Program-made: the position numbers and the translations under genes
DNA from: a virus
Direction: 5' to 3' (one strand)
Virus record (IMG/VR): IMGVR_UViG_3300013104_000006
Span: 1 to 57,784 of that record
DNA length: 57,784 nt
Notes under the pieces: model-generated
The model's input: the letters and a program-made list of their open reading frames with translations, nothing else
Told to the model about the DNA's origin: nothing
Databases searched by the model: none
Part shown: positions 124 through 51,133 of the stretch, piece by piece
How the letters are laid out: the number at the start of each line of letters is the position of its first letter
How positions within the stretch are numbered: the first letter of the stretch is position 1

Positions 124-1753
124 GGTGGACCACGACGCCACTATTACAATTTTCCACCCTATACAAAAAAATCCGGTAGTTATTGAGCCTGGCGATTGGA
201 TGGAAGTAAACCCGACAAAAAATAACAAACAACACAACCCCGAAGTATTCGAGAAAATAGAAAAATTAGTGAAAGATCATTCCAAAGAAATGACTAACGA
301 AGAGCGTAACAAAATGCTTTCCGAAGAGATCCGCGGATTATTCGATAAATACGATAAAGAAGGGGGTTTAATTGGCTTTATCGCTTACGGTAAAGATATT
401 GAAGAACTAGGCCCAAAAACAGCTAATAAAATGCTGGAATTAAAAACAGTTTTGGAAGCTGCAGGGTATAAAAACCATATTAACTACGCTTCAGATCCTA
501 ACCACCTGGAAAGTATTTTTATTAACGATAAGTTAGATACTATCCGCCCTATTAATCCGGGAAAAATTACCGAAGAAACAGGCGAAAAAATATTAGAAGG
601 GCTTAAAGATATAAGTAAAACTTTTTACGATAATTTCGAAAAAATCTCGGATTTCCGCCAGGGTTTACAAGTTAATAACCTTTATCTATCGATTCTAAAG
701 TTTAACGAATGGCGTAAACGGGCTGTTAGTTGTGCTCTTAAAGAACTCGAATTAGTAAAACAGTGTTTTGCGCCTGATAAAATTAGCCGTGGCGTAGTCA
801 TTAATCAAATCGTTAAAGATTTCCAATCGGATTTCCACACTGAATATTTAAAATATTTCCCGGCACCTGGAAGGTGTGGTAAAGTATCTTATTTTCAAAA
901 GTTAAGCGAAGATATGAAATCGCTTTTTCCTGAAGATATAACACCAGCTGGCGCCACTCCAAAAGAAAGGGCGGAAAGCACTTTTTTAAACGCTTTGGAA
1001 TTTGCTTACAGAACGCCATTTAATACTAAAATGGGTATAGATCCCGCCGGGCCTAATATGGATAAAACGGTAGTTTCTTCAGTTAGTGTAATTGATGGAA
1101 TGTTAAAAATATTAGATGTTTTTGATGTTGACAGATCCAAAGATTTAGGCAGTAATGATATTATAAAAGCTTTTGAAGAAAATATTTTTAAAGATCCTAA
1201 ATGGAAACACCGCGGCGAATGGAAGCCAGGATTTTATTACCCAGGGGATAAGGTAGTTTACGAAGGTAATTTATACGAAATGATTTTGGATTTAGGTTTA
1301 AGATCCTGTTTTAATCCGTTAATAACTACCATTCCCATAGCCTGGAAGAAAGTTCCATTTTTCCCGAAAAAACAGGAAAATCCTACCGATTACATTTATA
1401 GGGGTGGGTGGAGATCAGGAACGGAATATAAAAAAGGGGAAATAGTTAAATATAAGGGAGTTTTTTATATAGTTGATCTGTATTATCATTTCCACGAAAA
1501 CAAATCGCCTGAAGAAGCCGGGCACATGTGGAAGCCTCTTCCGGATCAGGATTTTACGCCTGATCCATCTAAAAAATTTATTGTGGAATTTAAGTCTAAC
1601 GAAAAATGGCTAAAAGAACATCTTTTGCGTAGGCAGAAACAATTAAAACGCGCGATAGCTAAATACACCAGCAAAGGGCTTAAAACCCCGCAAAGCTTAA
1701 AGGATCAGTTAAACGAAATTGAAGCGCAATTAATCCCTAAAGATGGAAAGTAA
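1..1753 (+). CDS. C-terminal part of a 699-aa protein crossing the end join; tandem SH3-like repeats plus carbohydrate-binding-like modules
   Basis: This is the continuation of the gene that starts at 57315; a TTG at 47 is internal, not the start. The joined product is 699 aa. Residues 1-190 look like three tandem units of about 55 residues (strand, turn, L-x-G-x-x-F-x-V), suggestive of SH3-like barrels. The middle is mostly helical and unrecognised. Near the C-terminus two units beginning HRGEWKPGFYYPGDKVVYEG and YRGGWRSGTEYKKGEIVKYK follow the W..G..Y..GD.V.Y.G..Y pattern of CBM5/12-type modules, which bind polysaccharide. A basic helix closes the protein. The following HTH gene overlaps its end by 11 nt. 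Surface binding or an early host-directed role are both possible; function is unknown. Confidence 0.8.
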   Translation, partial: CSLVNEAPVKKFRIRLFDTIYNKNYKDLAGMEFDVQTDLPEVDHDATITIFHPIQKNPVVIEPGDWMEVNPTKNNKQHNPEVFEKIEKLVKDHSKEMTNEERNKMLSEEIRGLFDKYDKEGGLIGFIAYGKDIEELGPKTANKMLELKTVLEAAGYKNHINYASDPNHLESIFINDKLDTIRPINPGKITEETGEKILEGLKDISKTFYDNFEKISDFRQGLQVNNLYLSILKFNEWRKRAVSCALKELELVKQCFAPDKISRGVVINQIVKDFQSDFHTEYLKYFPAPGRCGKVSYFQKLSEDMKSLFPEDITPAGATPKERAESTFLNALEFAYRTPFNTKMGIDPAGPNMDKTVVSSVSVIDGMLKILDVFDVDRSKDLGSNDIIKAFEENIFKDPKWKHRGEWKPGFYYPGDKVVYEGNLYEMILDLGLRSCFNPLITTIPIAWKKVPFFPKKQENPTDYIYRGGWRSGTEYKKGEIVKYKGVFYIVDLYYHFHENKSPEEAGHMWKPLPDQDFTPDPSKKFIVEFKSNEKWLKEHLLRRQKQLKRAIAKYTSKGLKTPQSLKDQLNEIEAQLIPKDGK

Positions 1754-1958
1754 TAATATTACCCAGGCCGGCGAAGTAACGCCCGCCTGGATCCGTAACC
1801 AAATGGAAACGGCGGATATCCAGGTTAAAAAAATAGTTATGGATACCGGCGTGGGCCAAACCAATATTTCCCAATGGATACACGGCCGGCGAAACATGAG
1901 CAAACCGGTTAAAGCAATGTTTTATTTTTACTTCTTAAAATTCAATCGAAATGAATAA
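1743..1958 (+). CDS. Small Cro/C1-type helix-turn-helix protein
   Basis: 71 aa. The segment VKKIVMDTGVGQTNISQWIHG has the spacing of a Cro/C1 helix-turn-helix: helix, G turn, recognition helix with T-N-I-S-Q-W. It is probably a DNA-binding regulator acting on phage promoters. It overlaps the preceding gene by 11 nt and the next by 8 nt, so it is translated from the same message. It is a candidate binder for the palindromic promoter sites at 25.2, 29.4 and 48.2 kb, but nothing in the sequence proves that link. Confidence 0.75.
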   Translation: MESNNITQAGEVTPAWIRNQMETADIQVKKIVMDTGVGQTNISQWIHGRRNMSKPVKAMFYFYFLKFNRNE

Positions 1959-3638: not shown

Positions 3639-3899
3639 ATGGCAAAAGAAACATTAACAACCTATAAAAATTTTAAACCTGTTTTTCTTAACGAAGCCCA
3701 GGTTAAAGAAGAGATTTCCACCGTAGTAAGCCAATTAAAAGCCGCTAGATTATTCCGCGGTTTATCGATGGCTAAAGTATGCCAGGATCTTAAAATACCA
3801 CAGTCTACGATATCTAAGGACGAAAAAGGCGATAAAAATATAAGCCTGGCAAAGCTTATTAAATATTCTGCTTACTACCAGGTAAAATTTACCGTATAA
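3639..3899 (+). CDS. XRE-family helix-turn-helix regulator
   Basis: 86 aa. Residues 35-80 carry the XRE fold: R-G-L-S-M-A-K-V-C-Q-D-L-K-I-P-Q-S-T-I-S-K then E-K-G-D-K-N-I-S-L-A-K-L-I-K-Y-S. An N-terminal 30-residue arm may mediate dimers. It closes the operon and is followed 18 nt later by a terminator. Likely a phage transcriptional regulator; targets unknown. Confidence 0.8.
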   Translation: MAKETLTTYKNFKPVFLNEAQVKEEISTVVSQLKAARLFRGLSMAKVCQDLKIPQSTISKDEKGDKNISLAKLIKYSAYYQVKFTV

Positions 3900-25019: not shown

Positions 25020-25202
25020 TTATTTTTGAATTTTAATAATATTTTGTTTCTCTAAATTAAGTAAATCGGCGTGGGTTTTACATTCGCTTATTAAATCGGT
25101 AACCCTTTCGAAATCATTAAGGTATAAAGGCATTATTTCAACAGTGAAATATATTTTATTTCCTGGCTTTTTTCCGTCTAAACTAACTGTAAATTTTCCC
25201 AT
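25020..25202 (-). CDS. Unrecognised 60-aa protein under the shared GGAA promoter
   Basis: Strand-strand-helix: M-G-K-F-T-V-S-L-D-G-K-K-P-G-N-K-I-Y-F-T-V-E-I, then acidic helix. It starts right after the AAAGGAAATAAAA leader shared with the genes at 29377, 48198 and 50957, so it belongs to that co-regulated set. Function unknown. Confidence 0.65.
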   Translation of the reverse strand: MGKFTVSLDGKKPGNKIYFTVEIMPLYLNDFERVTDLISECKTHADLLNLEKQNIIKIQK

Positions 25203-25224
25203 TTTTATTTCCTTTTTGTTATCA

Positions 25225-25257
25225 CAAAGATATAATTAATATTCCATACAAAGCAAA
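25225..25257 (-). promoter_or_regulatory. Minus-strand promoter with GGAA half-site (regulon member A)
   Basis: On the minus strand TTTG (25257-25254), a 21-nt gap, then TATCTTTG (25232-25225). GGAA (25245-25242) lies exactly 9 nt upstream of the -7 element, as at three other promoters. Here only one half of the palindrome found at the other sites remains (TTCCATAC on plus). Confidence 0.75.
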
Positions 25258-25277
25258 TTTATTTTAAAATAAATTTG
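25254..25277. promoter_or_regulatory. 24-nt perfect palindrome carrying back-to-back promoter elements
   Basis: The 24 bases equal their own reverse complement. Each end reads TAAATTTG outward, a full TAnnTTTG element on each strand; another TAAATTTG follows at 25284-25291. The site lies between the divergent gene pair and the endolysin gene, so it could couple the two promoters or act as an operator. Confidence 0.6.
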
Positions 25278-27478: not shown

Positions 27479-28123
27479 TTAAAATAAATCGCCTGGCCTA
27501 GCTTTCCATATTTTTTCAAAATCTTCTAACCAAACGCCGGTAATTTCTTTAACTGGCTTTTTGCCGTATTCTGCCAGCTGGCCGTTAAGCTCTATTTTAT
27601 ATTTATGCAAAGCCACTTCCCTATCGTCATCGTCTGTTTTATACTTCCCTGTTTTGTTATTATTAAATAATGGCATTACATGAAATTTTATAGGGGGAAG
27701 GTTTTTAATATCCCCTTTGCAATATTTAAAAACCTGGGTAACCATGTAAGTATAATTTTCGAAATGATCGCCCGCCCAAATTTCTAAAAGCGTACATTTT
27801 CCCCAAACAGAATGCGCAATAGTTCCGACTTTTTTTCTGTATTCAGCTAAATCAGCACTGCCATAAACGGTATTTTGAACATCATGTGCCTGGCCCTGGA
27901 AACATGTTTTATGGTTACGCGGATCAAAAGTCTTAACGTTCATTTTTCCGGTTTTTGGAAAGGCTTTATAAATTTCGATTTCTTGTTTAAGAATATCTAC
28001 TAAAGTAGATTTCATTTTTTTTTCAAGCGCCGGCACTAAAAGGGATTCTATTAAATCCGATTTAGGCAATACTTTTTCCCGGAGCGCTTTTTTTTCCGGT
28101 GTATCATTCCATCTAATATTCAT
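27479..28123 (-). CDS. Unrecognised 214-aa protein linked to the PAPS-reductase-like gene
   Basis: Polar, soluble, with scattered His/Cys (N-H-K-T-C-F-Q-G-Q-A-H-D, C-K-G-D, H-V-M-P-L-F) and acidic D-D-D-D near residue 163. Its start is preceded by the CACAACAATTTAAA leader, and the gene upstream encodes an ATP-pyrophosphatase-like enzyme ending 34 nt away, so a shared pathway is plausible. No family recognised. Confidence 0.65.
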   Translation of the reverse strand: MNIRWNDTPEKKALREKVLPKSDLIESLLVPALEKKMKSTLVDILKQEIEIYKAFPKTGKMNVKTFDPRNHKTCFQGQAHDVQNTVYGSADLAEYRKKVGTIAHSVWGKCTLLEIWAGDHFENYTYMVTQVFKYCKGDIKNLPPIKFHVMPLFNNNKTGKYKTDDDDREVALHKYKIELNGQLAEYGKKPVKEITGVWLEDFEKIWKARPGDLF

Positions 28124-28156: not shown

Positions 28157-29155
28157 TTAAAGAGGTCCGCACGATTCGCCAAAAGCGCCGGCCGGTAAAA
28201 CCCATGCTTCAGGATCAGAAATTATAATATTTAACGTGTATTCGGTAGAATTAGCCAGGGCAATTAATTCCGGTGTTATGGATTTATAAGCGGTTCCCAT
28301 GGCACGTAATTCCTGGATTGACATATTACGTTTTATGGTTTTACCAAAACTATCTTCATACATAGCGATTTCATTTCCGCGGGCTTCATTAACCGCAAAA
28401 GCGCTGGCAAATTGATCCGCGTTTCCGAAAATACAAAACATACAGCTGCAGCGTGACCAGCCCATATAATAACAAGGGTGTACCCTTATTTTCCAGCGCT
28501 CAATAATAGCCCAAACTTCAGCTTCAGACCAATTTTTTACCGGGCGCCAGCGATCTACATAACGTTTAAAATTTTTACCTTCGCGGTTATCGGTTCTATC
28601 CAATTCCAAATCCGCATAATTACTACGCGCTTTACTTTCTTCCCCACGTTCGCCCGAAATGCAAACGGTTTTTAAACCTTTAAAACGATCCTGGTTAGTT
28701 AATGCCGCCGCGCCTATATCTACTTTTAGGTAAGCGCTACACCACCTAACCGAAAGATCTACGGAAACCTGGGGAAATTTTAACCTGGTGGATCTTTTAC
28801 CGCGCAAACCCTGGCCGCCTATCGTTTTTAAGCCTTCGGGAGTTTCGAAAGTAGTAGCTTTAGTAAATTCATTATTACGCAACATTTCGCCTTTAAAACC
28901 GCCTTCCTTCCAGGAAAAATATATTTTAACGCCGAAGGCATCCGCGAACGCCTGGCAATAAGCCGGCGTAACATTCCAATCCATAAATTTTTCTTCCTGG
29001 CCATCTATGTTATGGTGCCATAGCTCAATTTTATTTAGAGGTATTCCGATTTCCAGTAAATGCAAAAAACAAGCTATAGAATCTTTACCGCCTGAAAAAT
29101 AAACTATATAAATATCGTAAGCTGAAATGTGGTAACCCTGGTAATTTGCGTTCAT
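28157..29155 (-). CDS. PAPS-reductase/ATP-pyrophosphatase family protein
   Basis: 332 aa from ATG 29155; a TTG at 29176 lies in the hairpin leader and is rejected. S-G-G-K-D-S (residues 21-26) is the PP-loop that binds ATP. C-I-S-G-E-R-G-E-E-S and W-R-P-V-K-N-W-S-E-A-E-V-W match the CysH/PAPS-reductase fold. A cysteine cluster H-P-C-Y-Y-M-G-W-S-R-C-S-C-M-F-C near residues 235-250 could bind metal or an iron-sulphur cluster. Family members activate sulphate or modify nucleotides, and in phages are suspected in DNA or tRNA thiolation. No Dnd partners are seen. Confidence 0.85.
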   Translation of the reverse strand: MNANYQGYHISAYDIYIVYFSGGKDSIACFLHLLEIGIPLNKIELWHHNIDGQEEKFMDWNVTPAYCQAFADAFGVKIYFSWKEGGFKGEMLRNNEFTKATTFETPEGLKTIGGQGLRGKRSTRLKFPQVSVDLSVRWCSAYLKVDIGAAALTNQDRFKGLKTVCISGERGEESKARSNYADLELDRTDNREGKNFKRYVDRWRPVKNWSEAEVWAIIERWKIRVHPCYYMGWSRCSCMFCIFGNADQFASAFAVNEARGNEIAMYEDSFGKTIKRNMSIQELRAMGTAYKSITPELIALANSTEYTLNIIISDPEAWVLPAGAFGESCGPL

Positions 29156-29174
29156 TATTAAAAGTTTTTTACCC

Positions 29175-29209
29175 AAAAACCCCGCCTTTATTTCAGGGCG
29201 GGGCTTTTA
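29175..29209. terminator. Terminator hairpin shared in sequence with the one at 47.95 kb
   Basis: CCCCGCC (29180-29186) pairs with GGCGGGG (29197-29203), with T/A runs on both sides. The 25 nt at 29179-29203 are identical to 47949-47973. On the minus strand it follows the 55-aa gene and is succeeded by TTTTTGGGTA and the gene at 29155 with no promoter between. Confidence 0.85.
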
Positions 29210-29377
29210 TTAGTTTGTAATTTCTTTAATTCTATCTGCTATTATTTTTTGTGCTTTTTCTGTTAACATTTCAGCTTTTGCCTGTTCAGGCGTAGCGCCG
29301 TTTTTTATGCAGTTAGTGAAGTATTCGAAACCTATTTGGTTAATCGCAATAGCCTGGGTAATTTCTTGATTTTTCAT
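29210..29377 (-). CDS. 55-aa helical protein under the shared GGAA promoter
   Basis: ATG 29377 to TAA 29210. Helical throughout; the segment N-G-A-T-P-E-Q-A-K-A-E-M-L-T-E-K-A recalls D-G-I-P-E-D-I-A-T-K-I-T-R-I-A-E-L in the 58-aa gene at 50957, which has the same promoter and leader. The two may be diverged copies of one family. Function unknown. Confidence 0.65.
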   Translation of the reverse strand: MKNQEITQAIAINQIGFEYFTNCIKNGATPEQAKAEMLTEKAQKIIADRIKEITN

Positions 29378-29399
29378 AATTTTTTCCTTTTTGTTATCA

Positions 29400-29430
29400 C
29401 AAAGATATATTATATATTCCGTATACGGAA
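29400..29430 (-). promoter_or_regulatory. Minus-strand promoter with perfect palindromic operator (regulon member B)
   Basis: TATCTTTG (29407-29400) with TTCCGTATACGGAA (29417-29430), a 14-nt perfect palindrome, exactly 9 nt upstream. The palindrome takes the place where a TTTG element would be expected. The leader GTGATAACAAAAAGGAAA leads to the ATG at 29377. Confidence 0.75.
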
Positions 29431-29476
29431 ATATATTTGAAAATAATTTAACAAAAAATATAAATAAAAATATTTC

Positions 29477-44247: not shown

Positions 44248-44469
44248 ATGGCTAAGACAAAAGCAGAAACAAAACCAGAAGTGGTTTTTCATGGTGCACA
44301 CCTAACGGCAGCACAAAAAGCGGAAGGCGTAACTTATACTTATGACTGGAATAAGGTAACAGATCCGGCGCACCTTAAAATCCGTAATAAGGGTTTACTA
44401 GAAGCCCAGGAAGCTACAGCAGCAAGCGAAACGCCTACAGCTGAAGGAGCACCGGAAGCAACCGCTTAA
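44248..44469 (+). CDS. 73-aa protein carrying a motif repeated in the next gene
   Basis: Residues 12-46 (V-F-H-G-A-H-L-T...Y-T-Y-D-W-N-K-V-T-D-P-A-H-L-K-I) closely match the C-terminus of the protein at 44537 (I-Y-H-G-D-F-L-T...I-T-F-D-W-D-E-V-T-A-P-E-H-L-A-I). The rest is low-complexity Glu/Ala/Thr. It lies after the portal gene and before a terminator, so it is probably a small virion or assembly protein. No named family. Confidence 0.65.
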   Translation: MAKTKAETKPEVVFHGAHLTAAQKAEGVTYTYDWNKVTDPAHLKIRNKGLLEAQEATAASETPTAEGAPEATA

Positions 44470-44536: not shown

Positions 44537-45400
44537 ATGGGAAGGCCAACAAAAGAAGAGCAAGCCGCTAAAGCAGCAGCAGCAAACACAGCCCCTAACG
44601 TTCCAAACGAAGGCGCGGAAGGTGTGGTAGGTAATGGCAATACGCCAGGAACCAACAGCCACGAAGGCATTTTACAAAAACAGGAAGAAGCCGAAAAGGA
44701 CGCCGGTTTAATTCCGGTAGATCCCGCAAAAGTGGAAGAGCCTTTAGATATTAACGCCCAGCCTGGCGTAAACGAAGGCGATCAAATCCAAAACGGATTA
44801 ACCGGTGGCGATATTGCTAATTCGCAAGAAATGCAGGAAGCCGGCGTTATTCCTGGGGATACTGTAAAAGAAGCCCAGGGGAAAATACAGGAAAATCGCG
44901 ACGCTATGACCGTTACGGAGGAAGATTTGCAAAATATTCCTTTTGCAGCTGAAGCCGGTATTTTCTTAGGCCAGGACCGCGGCGAAGGATTCCGTTTATT
45001 TACCGAACACCTGGAGAAAAACCCACATCTTTATCCGAAGGAAGATCCACGTTATAAGCCTGAAGTAGAAGTTAAAAATTTAGCTGATCTTTTGGAAGAG
45101 GGCGTAGAGCTTAACGAAGAGGAAATTAAATTGCTGGTATTTAACGGCATTTTAGACGAATCAGGCGAAAAGGTTTTAATTGAAGATAAGTTTACCGATT
45201 TCCTGGAAGATAAAGCCCGTATAGAAGCGGAAAACCCTACCCAGGATAAAAAGGATAAACATATTTACCACGGTGATTTTTTAACGGAATCGCAAATGGG
45301 TAATAAAATTACTTTTGATTGGGATGAGGTAACAGCACCGGAACACCTGGCCATCAAACCGGAAACACCGCCGCCGTTTACCGATGGAAAAAAACAATAA
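44537..45400 (+). CDS. Acidic 287-aa protein, possible scaffold or portal-associated protein
   Basis: Low-complexity Gln/Glu/Ala N-terminus (residues 1-120), a helical middle (L-A-D-L-L-E-E-G-V-E-L-N-E-E-E-I-K-L-L) and a C-terminal 35-residue motif shared with the gene at 44248. Very acidic overall. Position after the portal gene and composition fit an assembly or inner-head protein, though the scaffold call could also go to the gene at 6879. Confidence 0.6.
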   Translation: MGRPTKEEQAAKAAAANTAPNVPNEGAEGVVGNGNTPGTNSHEGILQKQEEAEKDAGLIPVDPAKVEEPLDINAQPGVNEGDQIQNGLTGGDIANSQEMQEAGVIPGDTVKEAQGKIQENRDAMTVTEEDLQNIPFAAEAGIFLGQDRGEGFRLFTEHLEKNPHLYPKEDPRYKPEVEVKNLADLLEEGVELNEEEIKLLVFNGILDESGEKVLIEDKFTDFLEDKARIEAENPTQDKKDKHIYHGDFLTESQMGNKITFDWDEVTAPEHLAIKPETPPPFTDGKKQ

Positions 45401-45892: not shown

Positions 45893-46135
45893 TTATTTTT
45901 TAAGCTTGTAAACCCTGTTAGCCATAAAACTACGGTGTTTATCCAGCCATGCCGTAGCCTGGCCACACATAATAGTAAATTCGTTAGTTATTGTATCCTG
46001 GGTAAAACTCCCATCGTCTTTTTTAAGGGAAATTACTTCCCCTACTTTAAATTTTTCGTTCAAAGCGTCTACTTCAGCTTTTACTTTATCGTATGATTTA
46101 CGCTCTTTTTTACTCATTAACTCTAAGTGTATCAT
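45893..46135 (-). CDS. Unrecognised 80-aa protein
   Basis: Helical N-terminus (M-S-K-K-E-R-K-S-Y-D-K-V-K-A-E-V-D-A-L) and then a strand region with one Cys. An internal ATG at residue 7 is a possible alternative start. It lies 4 nt from each neighbour in the leftward operon. Confidence 0.65.
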   Translation of the reverse strand: MIHLELMSKKERKSYDKVKAEVDALNEKFKVGEVISLKKDDGSFTQDTITNEFTIMCGQATAWLDKHRSFMANRVYKLKK

Positions 46136-46139
46136 AATT

Positions 46140-46340
46140 TTAATGGTTATGGCTTACGTAGCCGGTTTTTAAAATATCTTCTAATCTCCTGGCGATATCA
46201 TCCAGTTTTCGGCTTAATTCCCTGGCGTGTAGTTCGTCGAATGGGTTTTGGTGTTTTTGGGCGTAAATCTGATCTTCCATAGCCTTAACGGCTTCCTGGC
46301 GGACCAATCTAACCGCCTGTTTTGCTTTGCTTATAGCCAT
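46140..46340 (-). CDS. Unrecognised 66-aa helical protein
   Basis: Two helices with basic ends (A-K-Q-A-V-R-L-V-R-Q-E-A-V-K-A-M, then A-R-E-L-S-R-K-L-D-D-I-A-R-R-L-E-D-I-L) and H-N-H at the C-terminus. Tightly packed in the leftward operon (3 nt upstream gap). Possibly DNA-binding by charge; no family. Confidence 0.65.
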   Translation of the reverse strand: MAISKAKQAVRLVRQEAVKAMEDQIYAQKHQNPFDELHARELSRKLDDIARRLEDILKTGYVSHNH

Positions 46341-46343
46341 ATC

Positions 46344-46610
46344 CTACCGATTTAAAACGCGTAAAGCCCTATCCAGCGCCAAAGTTTCGTAATTACGATC
46401 TTCCGGATAATTAACGGCCGTTTCGTGCCATTCTTTATAACAGTTATCGCAATACGTTCTATTTGCCAGCACAGGAATAAAAGTACCGCCAAATAGTAAA
46501 GCTACCCCGCAACTATCGCAAACTGGCGCTACAGCACCAAATTTTTGTATTTCTACCAGGTTTACCGGGATAACCTTAAACCCTTTTGATGTTGTTACAA
46601 ACCCTTTCAT
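46344..46610 (-). CDS. Zinc-ribbon-like 88-aa protein
   Basis: Two cysteine knuckles, C-D-S-C-G (residues 31-34) and C-D-N-C-Y (54-57), spaced by about 20 residues, fit a small zinc ribbon binding one zinc ion. The rest is short strands and a C-terminal helix. Zinc ribbons here could bind DNA or a protein partner; partner unknown. Confidence 0.7.
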   Translation of the reverse strand: MKGFVTTSKGFKVIPVNLVEIQKFGAVAPVCDSCGVALLFGGTFIPVLANRTYCDNCYKEWHETAVNYPEDRNYETLALDRALRVLNR

Positions 46611-46612
46611 AA

Positions 46613-46894
46613 TTACATTTCAAATAATACCCCAAATTTCGCCCAATTTTCAGGCGTGTTTAAAATCCCGTGGTCATTCTCTAAATGATCTTTAACCCAT
46701 AAGCCGGTTAATAAATCTTTATGCACTTTGACAGCGCTATAATTATTATATTTTTCCACGGCTTCAGCATGGCCCAGGGCGTAAAGCCCGGCGGCTTCCT
46801 GGTAAAGTGTGTAGCCGCATTCGTTAGCGCGCCACAGCGTAATAAAAGCATCCCGTTTGTTAGTGTGCTTTACAGATAATAAATAGTAGTTCAT
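46613..46894 (-). CDS. Unrecognised 93-aa protein
   Basis: Strand-rich start (Y-Y-L-L-S-V-K-H-T-N-K-R-D-A-F-I-T-L-W-R) followed by a helix with A-L-G-H-A-E-A-V-E-K-Y-N-N-Y and aromatic residues. It lies between the methyltransferase gene (3 nt) and the zinc-ribbon gene (2 nt). No family recognised. Confidence 0.65.
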   Translation of the reverse strand: MNYYLLSVKHTNKRDAFITLWRANECGYTLYQEAAGLYALGHAEAVEKYNNYSAVKVHKDLLTGLWVKDHLENDHGILNTPENWAKFGVLFEM

Positions 46895-46897
46895 AGT

Positions 46898-47632
46898 TTA
46901 AAAAATTAATTTTTGTTGTTTATTTGGATTGACGTAACGCCCTTTTTCGGCACGTTCAAAATGTAATTGTAAAGTTTGCCTTACTTTGGCTTCAAAATGG
47001 CGGTTTTTAATCACTTTATCAGGCGCTACAATAGAAACCATTTTATAGATATCAGAAAGGGCGGCCGTTGCGTTTAGTTTCGTAAAAGCTACTTTAACTA
47101 CTGATTTCCAGGTGGAAGAAAATCCAACCAATAAAATAGGCTGGGATTGTAAAAACACATGTTTCCCATCTATTCCGCTTTCATGTATTGCCTGTACGTT
47201 ATCTTCCCCGTAGGCTATCAAAACAGATGCCGCCCCGCCATTACTTATTCCAGGATTTCCCTTAATATCTAAAAAGGTTAAACGGCCTTTTATAAACAAA
47301 ATACTTGAAGCAAAAGGAAAAATATAATCCTGAAAGGCTTTAGTATCAGTACGGGCAAAAATTAAAGAAACACCGTTAAGATGTAAAGACATTTTTTCCA
47401 TCCATTTTATTAATTCCCTTCCGTAAGGTGGATTAAGCCATACACGGCCAAACCACGGCGATTTTAAACCATCGTCTTTAATCGTATAATGATTTTTTGC
47501 AGTTGGCCAGGGCATGTTTAAAGGCGTACAAGGATCTAAATCGAAATCGCCCAATGACTTTATAAGTTCGGGCGGGGTTAACCATGTATCCGTACCTATT
47601 TCTGAAGTATGATTTACATTAAATTTTTTCAT
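46898..47632 (-). CDS. Phage-type DNA N6-adenine methyltransferase
   Basis: 244 aa. Residues 10-70 show S-E-I-G-T-D-T-W-L-T-P-P-E-L, D-L-D-P-C (31-35) and W-L-N-P-P-Y (65-70), the layout of the phage DNA adenine methyltransferase family (PF05869-like) with NPPY as catalytic motif IV. It transfers a methyl group to adenine N6, protecting phage DNA or marking it. The C-terminal 80 residues beyond the usual domain are basic. The leader before it has the hairpin and CACGACAATTTAAA motif. Confidence 0.87.
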   Translation of the reverse strand: MKKFNVNHTSEIGTDTWLTPPELIKSLGDFDLDPCTPLNMPWPTAKNHYTIKDDGLKSPWFGRVWLNPPYGRELIKWMEKMSLHLNGVSLIFARTDTKAFQDYIFPFASSILFIKGRLTFLDIKGNPGISNGGAASVLIAYGEDNVQAIHESGIDGKHVFLQSQPILLVGFSSTWKSVVKVAFTKLNATAALSDIYKMVSIVAPDKVIKNRHFEAKVRQTLQLHFERAEKGRYVNPNKQQKLIF

Positions 47633-47634
47633 TT

Positions 47635-47680
47635 TTTAAATTGTCGTGTACCCAAAAACCCCGCTTTGTTAGGGCGGGGC
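47635..47680 (-). promoter_or_regulatory. Terminator-like hairpin and CACGACAATTTAAA leader before the methyltransferase
   Basis: Minus strand: CCCCGC pairs with GCGGGG (47679-47674 and 47664-47659), then TTTTTGGGTA and CACGACAATTTAAA (47648-47635), ending 2 nt before the ATG region. The upstream gene stops at 47686, so transcripts entering the methyltransferase must read through this hairpin. It mirrors the module at 2772. Confidence 0.65.
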
Positions 47681-47685
47681 GAATA

Positions 47686-47901
47686 TTAATTTTTTAGTTT
47701 TATTAAATCATTGTGCAACCTTTCCAGGCGATCAGCATTTGAAGCCAGCCGGTGCCCCTTACTTGTATCTGATAAATCCATGGTTTTTAAAACTTCGTCG
47801 ATCTTTTGCATAGAAGAATAAACCGAATTTACCAAATCTTCAATTTCTGCAGATGAAACAGCGATTAACTTTTGATCTTCTTTTAAATTAATTAATTCCA
47901 T
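47686..47901 (-). CDS. Unrecognised 71-aa helical protein
   Basis: Two helices, acidic then basic: A-V-S-S-A-E-I-E-D-L-V-N-S-V-Y-S-S-M-Q-K-I, and S-N-A-D-R-L-E-R-L-H-N-D-L-I-K-L-K-N. Coiled-coil pairing likely. Its leader contains the hairpin at 47.95 kb. Function unknown. Confidence 0.65.
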   Translation of the reverse strand: MELINLKEDQKLIAVSSAEIEDLVNSVYSSMQKIDEVLKTMDLSDTSKGHRLASNADRLERLHNDLIKLKN

Positions 47902-47945
47902 ATAAATATTACTTTTTGTTACCTGGCTAAATTGCCATGCACCCG

Positions 47946-47974
47946 GAAACCCCGCCTTTATTTCAGGGCGGGGT
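47946..47974. terminator. Terminator hairpin identical in its stem-loop to that at 29.18 kb
   Basis: CCCCGCC (47950-47956) pairs with GGCGGGG (47967-47973). The 25 nt 47949-47973 equal 29179-29203. On the minus strand it follows the stop of the 72-aa gene at 47980 and precedes the 71-aa gene, with no promoter between them. Confidence 0.85.
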
Positions 47975-47979
47975 AGTTA

Positions 47980-48198
47980 TTAGTTTAGTGTTACTTTGGA
48001 AAGGTTTGCGGTGTGCCAGCCTTTCGCCCAGGCTTTCATTATTTTAACCGTAGCGCCTTTTATGTGTTGATTAACTTCAATCAATCCCATGCACGATTTA
48101 CTAACAGCTGGAATACATTTTACACCGTTGTTAAAATCTGCAATACCTAAAATTTTAGCGGCTTCGATTTGTGATTTGTTTAATGTTGTAGTTTTCAT
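47980..48198 (-). CDS. 72-aa protein under the shared GGAA promoter
   Basis: The start is ATG 48198, set by the promoter and the AAAGGAAATAATT leader; the longer frame to 48324 would run through the promoter and is rejected. Helical start (L-N-K-S-Q-I-E-A-A-K-I-L-G-I-A) then A-T-V-K-I-M-K-A-W-A-K-G-W-H-T, with two Cys. Member C of the four-promoter regulon. No family recognised. Confidence 0.7.
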   Translation of the reverse strand: MKTTTLNKSQIEAAKILGIADFNNGVKCIPAVSKSCMGLIEVNQHIKGATVKIMKAWAKGWHTANLSKVTLN

Positions 48199-48220
48199 AA
48201 TTATTTCCTTTTTGTTATAA

Positions 48221-48251
48221 CAAAGATATAAGTTATATTCCATATATGGAA
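48221..48251 (-). promoter_or_regulatory. Minus-strand promoter with perfect palindromic operator (regulon member C)
   Basis: TATCTTTG (48228-48221) with TTCCATATATGGAA (48238-48251), a 14-nt perfect palindrome, 9 nt upstream. Spacing equals that at 29.4 kb. The leader is GTTATAACAAAAAGGAAA. Confidence 0.75.
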
Positions 48252-48281
48252 ATATATTTGAAAATAAATATAAGAAATAAT

Positions 48282-48330
48282 TTTGATTTGTATTTTTAAT
48301 ATAGGTATGTTTGTGGCACAACAATTTAAA
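48282..48330 (+). promoter_or_regulatory. Consensus promoter plus CACAACAATTTAAA leader
   Basis: TTTG (48282-48285), 20 nt, TATGTTTG (48306-48313), then CACAACAATTTAAA (48317-48330) starting just 3 nt on, so the motif is at the very 5' end of the message. It drives the accessory operon from 48342. It lies divergent from regulon promoter C, about 60 nt away. Confidence 0.75.
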
Positions 48331-50897: not shown

Positions 50898-50913
50898 TAT
50901 ATTTTCTTTTAAT

Positions 50914-50934
50914 GGAATAATAATTATATATTTG
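50914..50934 (+). promoter_or_regulatory. Plus-strand promoter of the GGAA regulon (member D)
   Basis: GGAA (50914-50917), exactly 9 nt, TATATTTG (50927-50934), then GTGGAACAAAAGGAAATATAATT before the ATG at 50957. Only one half-site of the palindrome is present. It is the only member of the set on the plus strand. Confidence 0.7.
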
Positions 50935-50956
50935 TGGAACAAAAGGAAATATAATT

Positions 50957-51133
50957 ATGGAAATTACAGATAAAATTATCGCTGACTGCAAAAAACAAAT
51001 ACTTGCGGGCGTTCTACTTAAAAACGTTAAAAGGGGCTTAATAAACGATGGCATACCGGAAGATATAGCTACCAAAATTACCAGGATTGCAGAGCTTGAA
51101 GCAAACGAATTTAGCGAAAACAAAGCAAAATAA
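50957..51133 (+). CDS. 58-aa helical protein under the shared GGAA promoter
   Basis: ATG 50957 to TAA 51133. Helices with C at residue 10, then D-G-I-P-E-D-I-A-T-K-I-T-R-I-A-E-L-E-A. The G-x-x-P-E-x-I/Q-A-x-K pattern recalls the 55-aa protein at 29210. Promoter and leader match the other regulon members. Function unknown. Confidence 0.65.
   Translation: MEITDKIIADCKKQILAGVLLKNVKRGLINDGIPEDIATKITRIAELEANEFSENKAK

Follow-up and report, generated by a model that had tools for sequence, protein, structure and literature searches.

To our knowledge, little has been established about regulation in the phages of Bacteroidota, a phylum with promoters unlike the E. coli ones. The locus at 29400 to 29430 therein raises a question: what joins a promoter and a perfect palindrome into one element, and would a protein bound at that palindrome act as a repressor or as an activator? 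The window, by which is meant the whole stretch of DNA that was analysed, is a 57.8-kb virus record whose portal resembles the portals of phages of Porphyromonas, Riemerella and Bacteroides, and whose terminase has its relatives largely in genomes of Bacteroidota. The phage promoter family described here is probably a small genetic switch for small-protein and DNA-modification genes.

A family of four promoters

An earlier note on this DNA had reported four promoters built as GGAA-N9-TAnnTTTG. All are present, and the pattern has exactly these four matches in the window, against a mean of 0.35 and a maximum of 2 in shuffled sequences, so that a chance origin is rejected. TAnnTTTG taken alone shows no enrichment, with 87 occurrences for 81 expected, and the signal is thus the combination and its position. 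All four -7 boxes lie exactly 22 nt upstream of an ATG, a regularity that the earlier note does not mention. The members are as follows.

29400..29407, minus strand: -7 element TATCTTTG of promoter 29400; whole match 29400-29420; predicted +1 at 29395
48221..48228, minus strand: -7 element TATCTTTG of promoter 48221; whole match 48221-48241; predicted +1 at 48216
25225..25245, minus strand: third member, GGAA half-site, N9 and TATCTTTG; predicted +1 at 25220
50914..50934, plus strand: fourth member, GGAA half-site, N9 and TATATTTG; predicted +1 at 50939

The Bacteroidota sigma-ABfr promoter has a -33 TTTG and a -7 TAHHTTTG, the latter numbered T-12 to G-5 (PMC6847099). The four -7 boxes, TATCTTTG and TATATTTG, all fit TAHHTTTG, and the predicted +1 positions, which were derived from this published numbering, each give an 18-nt leader. 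Judged from its sequence, each member is predicted to act as a Bacteroidota housekeeping promoter. An alignment of seven promoters identifies 25225 as the same promoter in a diverged copy, and the stretch upstream of it is 94% identical to that of a related phage, L007. The four promoters are one family, real and conserved within one phage clade.

Palindromes over the -33 element

What distinguishes two of the four is an inverted repeat that overlaps the promoter, an arrangement also seen in L007, L156 and L005.

29417..29430, no strand: perfect 14-nt palindrome TTCCGTATACGGAA, proposed operator, at about -35 to -22; shuffle p 0.002
48238..48251, no strand: perfect 14-nt palindrome TTCCATATATGGAA, proposed operator, recurring in L007 and L156 at the same offset
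25254..25277, no strand: perfect 24-nt palindrome CAAATTTATTTTAAAATAAATTTG, unlike the 14-nt ones, overlapping the -33 box of 25225
29428..29431, minus strand: TTTC as a degenerate -33 element, spaced N20 to the -7 element and inside the left arm of the palindrome
48249..48252, minus strand: TTTC as a degenerate -33 element, spaced N20 to the -7 element
50903-50906, plus strand: TTTC, degenerate -33 element of 50914, N20
25254-25257, minus strand: true TTTG of promoter 25225, N21, with no TTCC arm

Both 14-nt palindromes sit where the earlier note had placed them, at the position of the TTTG box, spanning -35 to -22 with a centre at about -28.5. By local dinucleotide shuffling, a 14-nt palindrome at this exact offset has a p of about 0.001-0.002 per site. 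Their centres differ, as had also been noticed, CGTATACG in one and CATATATG in the other, and the difference is a symmetric G/C to A/T pair; since such a change keeps the dyad, it supports one operator rather than two. Promoters 25225 and 50914 have only the GGAA half and lack the TTCC-N6-GGAA palindrome. Of the shared control proposed for the four, the single promoter family stands, while control common to all of them is not borne out, the palindrome being present in two. A literature search for TTCCATATATGGAA found no paper.

A count over 188 promoter-like boxes from this phage set shows an excess of TTTG at spacings N19-21 (8.5%, 6.9% and 4.3%, compared with about 1% in coding controls), and it follows that the dyad covers the -33 element. 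At this spacing 25225 has TTTG-N21 and the other three have TTTC-N20, with one mismatch. The position of the palindrome favours a repressor over an activator. The alternative is that these are activator-dependent promoters of the middle type, at which a phage protein on the palindrome replaces the -33 contact and recruits RNA polymerase. With TTTC instead of TTTG, the promoters may have little basal strength. This would suit an activator, as would the well-conserved -7 box and the fact that the palindromic copies are without a perfect TTTG when 25225, which lacks the 14-nt palindrome, carries one at N21. Against this, TTTC is kept at the right spacing (N20) in every palindromic copy. Activation is considered unlikely though not remote, a weaker reading than repression.

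Two further features lie close by. The 24-nt palindrome CAAATTTATTTTAAAATAAATTTG falls between the 60-aa gene behind 25225 and the endolysin gene, and a stretch related to it, AAATTTATTTTAAAATAATT, is found in L005 upstream of its dyad promoter. Upstream of the palindromes, CAAATATA was considered as a divergent -7 box on the plus strand; this is possible, but the plus-strand operon at 48306 has its own TTTG-N20-TATGTTTG and CAAATATA is missing at the second site of the L007 phage, so that such a role is not needed.

Genes behind the promoters

29210..29377, minus strand: 55-aa first gene of operon 29400, no family match
28157..29176, minus strand: PAPS-reductase-like protein, second gene of operon 29400 (phrog_424, 8e-27; PF01507, 4.2e-9)
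27479..28123, minus strand: 214-aa gene of operon 29400
47980..48198, minus strand: 72-aa first gene of operon 48221
46898..47632, minus strand: Dam-type DNA adenine methyltransferase, third gene of operon 48221 (PF05869, 4.1e-11; phrog_111, 7.7e-42)
45893..46894, minus strand: four further small genes of the counter-oriented operon 48221
25020..25202, minus strand: 60-aa gene behind promoter 25225
50957..51133, plus strand: 58-aa gene behind promoter 50914, co-directional with the surrounding operon

The description of these genes as encoding proteins of 55-72 aa is right for the first genes, but operons 29400 and 48221 run on into larger ones. In the same way, the term small-protein regulon suits the small first genes and misses the PAPS-reductase-like gene and the Dam-type methyltransferase that the operons also hold. 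Homology among the four first genes was rejected, as they are unrelated to each other and share no family, and no toxin or antitoxin families were found among the first genes and operon genes of the window. The PAPS-reductase-like protein at 28157-29176 falls in the host-takeover class of PHROGs. Together with the Dam-type methyltransferase in counter-oriented operons it possibly points to DNA modification against restriction. A link between the operator and PAPS reductase as such was dismissed, since closer homologues (53-64% identical, L223-L232) have no operator upstream.

Elsewhere in the window, the head morphogenesis protein at 54348-55496 matches phrog_16625 over 22-367, a family whose Bxa ADP-ribosyl transferase annotation was probably taken from fused proteins. 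The 568-aa protein at 47-1753 has a match to the CBM_5_12 carbohydrate-binding module at residues 455-475 and no PHROG match.

The leaders

The leaders were said to be near-identical, and this is so in three; that of 50914 is two bases shorter before AAAGGAAA and two longer after it. All four (25202-25220, 29377-29395, 48198-48216 and 50939-50957) carry AAAGGA at Shine-Dalgarno distance. Upstream of the window genes, SD-like tetramers occur in 5 of 59 cases, compared with 18.6% before any ATG. A paucity of such motifs is expected for Bacteroidota. The Fisher p for AAAGGA in the leaders is about 1e-4, a descriptive value, as the four were picked for their shared leader and are related by descent. 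In addition, the start region has a second dyad, TTTGT-N3/4-ACAAA, which follows 5 of 332 TAHHTTTGT boxes, namely the four in the window and the one in L005. A two-level switch, in which the operator is joined by SD-dependent translation for just these genes or by a second regulator at the start site, is regarded as very unlikely; on the first of these readings, the phage would use SD-dependent translation in a host phylum normally without it.

Recurrence in related phages

Searching with the terminase brought up 75 loci in viruses and 36 in genomes. The L007 phage, represented by a 32-kb fragment, has a terminase 66% identical to that of the window and two copies of the GGAA-N9-TAnnTTTG element, its only two matches. 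One lies in a divergent region downstream of the portal and heads some ten small genes in a counter-oriented operon, and the other stands ahead of 48-aa, 125-aa and PAPS-reductase-like genes. The palindromic promoters of the window likewise head a PAPS-reductase-like operon and a counter-oriented operon downstream of the portal. The genes behind the matching promoters are mostly not homologous, and because there is only a distant relationship between the PAPS-reductase-like proteins of the two phages (28% over 140 aa) the parallel between the operons is suggestive only.

In L005 a diverged symmetric dyad, TTTCATTATATTGAAA (TTCA-N6-TGAA), occupies the same offset and locus, and the arm changes are from C/G to A/T, paired so that symmetry is kept. 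When 469 boxes upstream of ORFs at 113 loci were screened for dyads of at least 6/7 with their centre exactly at -16 from the -7 box, the only ones were two in the window and those of L007 and L005. The dyad was not found in more distant relatives of the phage, and the exact promoter plus leader had no match in IMG/VR; the element is known from three phages only. The search of relatives and host-type genomes that the earlier note had proposed thus yields L007 and, in diverged form, L005, with no excess in Sphingobacteriaceae. The elements recur in relatives, and in corresponding positions, which is what a regulon would lead one to expect and supports such a reading of these sequences.

Could the family be simply a duplicated promoter cassette, spread by recombination and shared descent, with no dedicated regulator and a palindrome that affects only promoter strength? 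The core and, in three copies, the upstream and leader sequences are alike over tens of bases, and no homology links the first genes, as such an origin would have it. The paired changes, however, preserve the dyad in three phages. Furthermore, the two L007-phage copies are 100% identical over a 36-column core with upstream sequence at 44% and leader at 33%; as the core is identical and the flanks differ, the conserved unit ends sharply at the palindrome and -7 box. A cassette of this kind is judged quite improbable.

The slot downstream of the portal holds counter-oriented small-gene operons in the window (45893-48198), L007 (10736-13833) and L005 (4135-4838), and their content differs almost wholly among the three. 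The slot is a hotspot of variable genes, possibly with anti-defence functions. Adjacent to each other after the portal, 44248-44469 and 44537-45400 share a short similar stretch of 34 aa (44%), conserved in L007; no known domain was found in either.

The same palindrome in toxin-antitoxin operons

A scan of IMG/VR for the palindrome, with its spacing to TAnnTTTG left free, found at the 9-nt spacing three further intergenic matches in other, unrelated phages (L123, L142 and L167). In L123 (5700-5900) and L142 the palindrome fronts a toxin-antitoxin operon with an XRE antitoxin, and in L167 there is no recognised gene behind it. Many of its matches at other spacings proved to be repeated coding sequence and were set aside. 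In the bacterial genome loci L214 and L215 an intergenic palindrome fronts genes for HigB-like toxins, and an XRE antitoxin can also be seen behind the palindrome of L215. XRE antitoxins of HigB/HigA-like operons usually autorepress. The same palindrome at the same offset in front of such operons therefore favours a dimeric repressor, and it counts against activation. In Pseudomonas, for instance, HigA binds palindromes in the promoter of its own operon and so represses it (PMC6987408), a parallel which, by analogy, argues for repression at the window promoters.

The likeness to HigB/HigA-type promoters lies in a palindrome of the family TTCCATATNTGGAA placed 9 nt from TAnnTTTG in L123, L142, L214 and L215; it ends there, as the window operons are without a toxin-antitoxin pair and the window HTH protein is encoded elsewhere and only distantly similar. 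That TTCCATATNTGGAA keeps this fixed distance in front of toxin-antitoxin operons with XRE antitoxins, in phages and in chromosomes alike, suggests that the layout is a general one for operators at Bacteroidota promoters.

That HigB/HigA-like operons of Bacteroidota genomes (L214, L215) have this palindrome at an identical offset would also fit a host-encoded regulator, such as a chromosomal XRE antitoxin, that binds the phage sites and lets the phage read the state of its host. Yet 301 Sphingobacteriaceae genomes gave 14 pattern matches, fewer than the backwards control, though the true host may be another group, and a stricter pattern gave none in 296 Bacteroidota genomes, a sample outside which the true host may lie. 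On these two samples a widespread host regulon was rejected, and more distant phage relatives are without the element. A host regulator has only a very slight chance of being the explanation.

Candidate regulators

3639..3899, plus strand: 86-aa HTH_3 (XRE) protein, candidate regulator (PF01381, 1.9e-8, over cut-off)
1743..1958, plus strand: 71-aa possible HTH protein, weaker candidate (HTH_19, 1.7e-4, below cut-off)

Both had been put forward as binders of the site, and neither could be tied to it: no relative of the 3639 protein was detected in IMG/VR, and no HTH_3 was found on the 32-kb L007 fragment. Those operon genes of the window and L007 that were scanned gave no HTH, the one clear HTH_3 of the window being far off at 3639, and no cognate XRE repressor was found inside or beside the controlled operons among the genes scanned. 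The window HTH protein aligns weakly with the L123 antitoxin (24% over 51 aa), and the recognition helix differs. Among proteins common to the window and L007, the search for a shared regulator gave only a probable small terminase with a weak HTH match.

A proposed switch and its relation to known systems

From the sequences, spacing, recurrence, paired changes and operon content set out above, we infer promoter activity, direction of control, binding protein and timing as follows. Host RNA polymerase would read the promoters through a -33 TTTG or TTTC, N20-21 and a -7 TAHHTTTG. In the dyad-bearing copies (two in the window, both of the L007 phage and that of L005), TTCC-N6-GGAA, or TTCA-N6-TGAA in L005, overlies the -33 element with its centre at about -28.5. 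This dyad would be bound by a dimeric protein, most likely one of XRE type that the phage itself encodes, and polymerase would be blocked. The counter-oriented operons, with their small proteins, PAPS-reductase-like protein and Dam methylase, would then be expressed only in the absence or on titration of the repressor, as for example soon after entry. Taken as a whole, this proposal is considered moderately likely.

The promoters resemble sigma-ABfr promoters in their TAHHTTTG boxes; 20-21 nt upstream they have TTTG in one case and TTTC, one mismatch away, in three, and they differ in that the palindromic copies have the TTTC inside an inverted repeat. As with the CI/Cro operators of lambda, a dyad lies over the polymerase site, the operons are divergently arranged and there are several copies per genome; unlike them, the window dyads are single, with no adjoining repressor gene and no lysogeny genes in the ORFs scanned. 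T4 MotA acts at a box centred near -30 that is not palindromic. The middle promoters of T4 similarly combine a phage-specific element at the upstream polymerase contact with a retained downstream box, but the window element is palindromic rather than asymmetric, and for the proteins that were compared with Pfam and PHROGs there was no match of MotA or AsiA type, which would speak against activation as well.

The operator-promoter unit moves from one locus to another, where the operons behind it, of small genes and of DNA modification, are variable. It offers a testable handle on the early programme of Bacteroidota phages, and a landmark by which accessory, possibly anti-defence, operons may be located.
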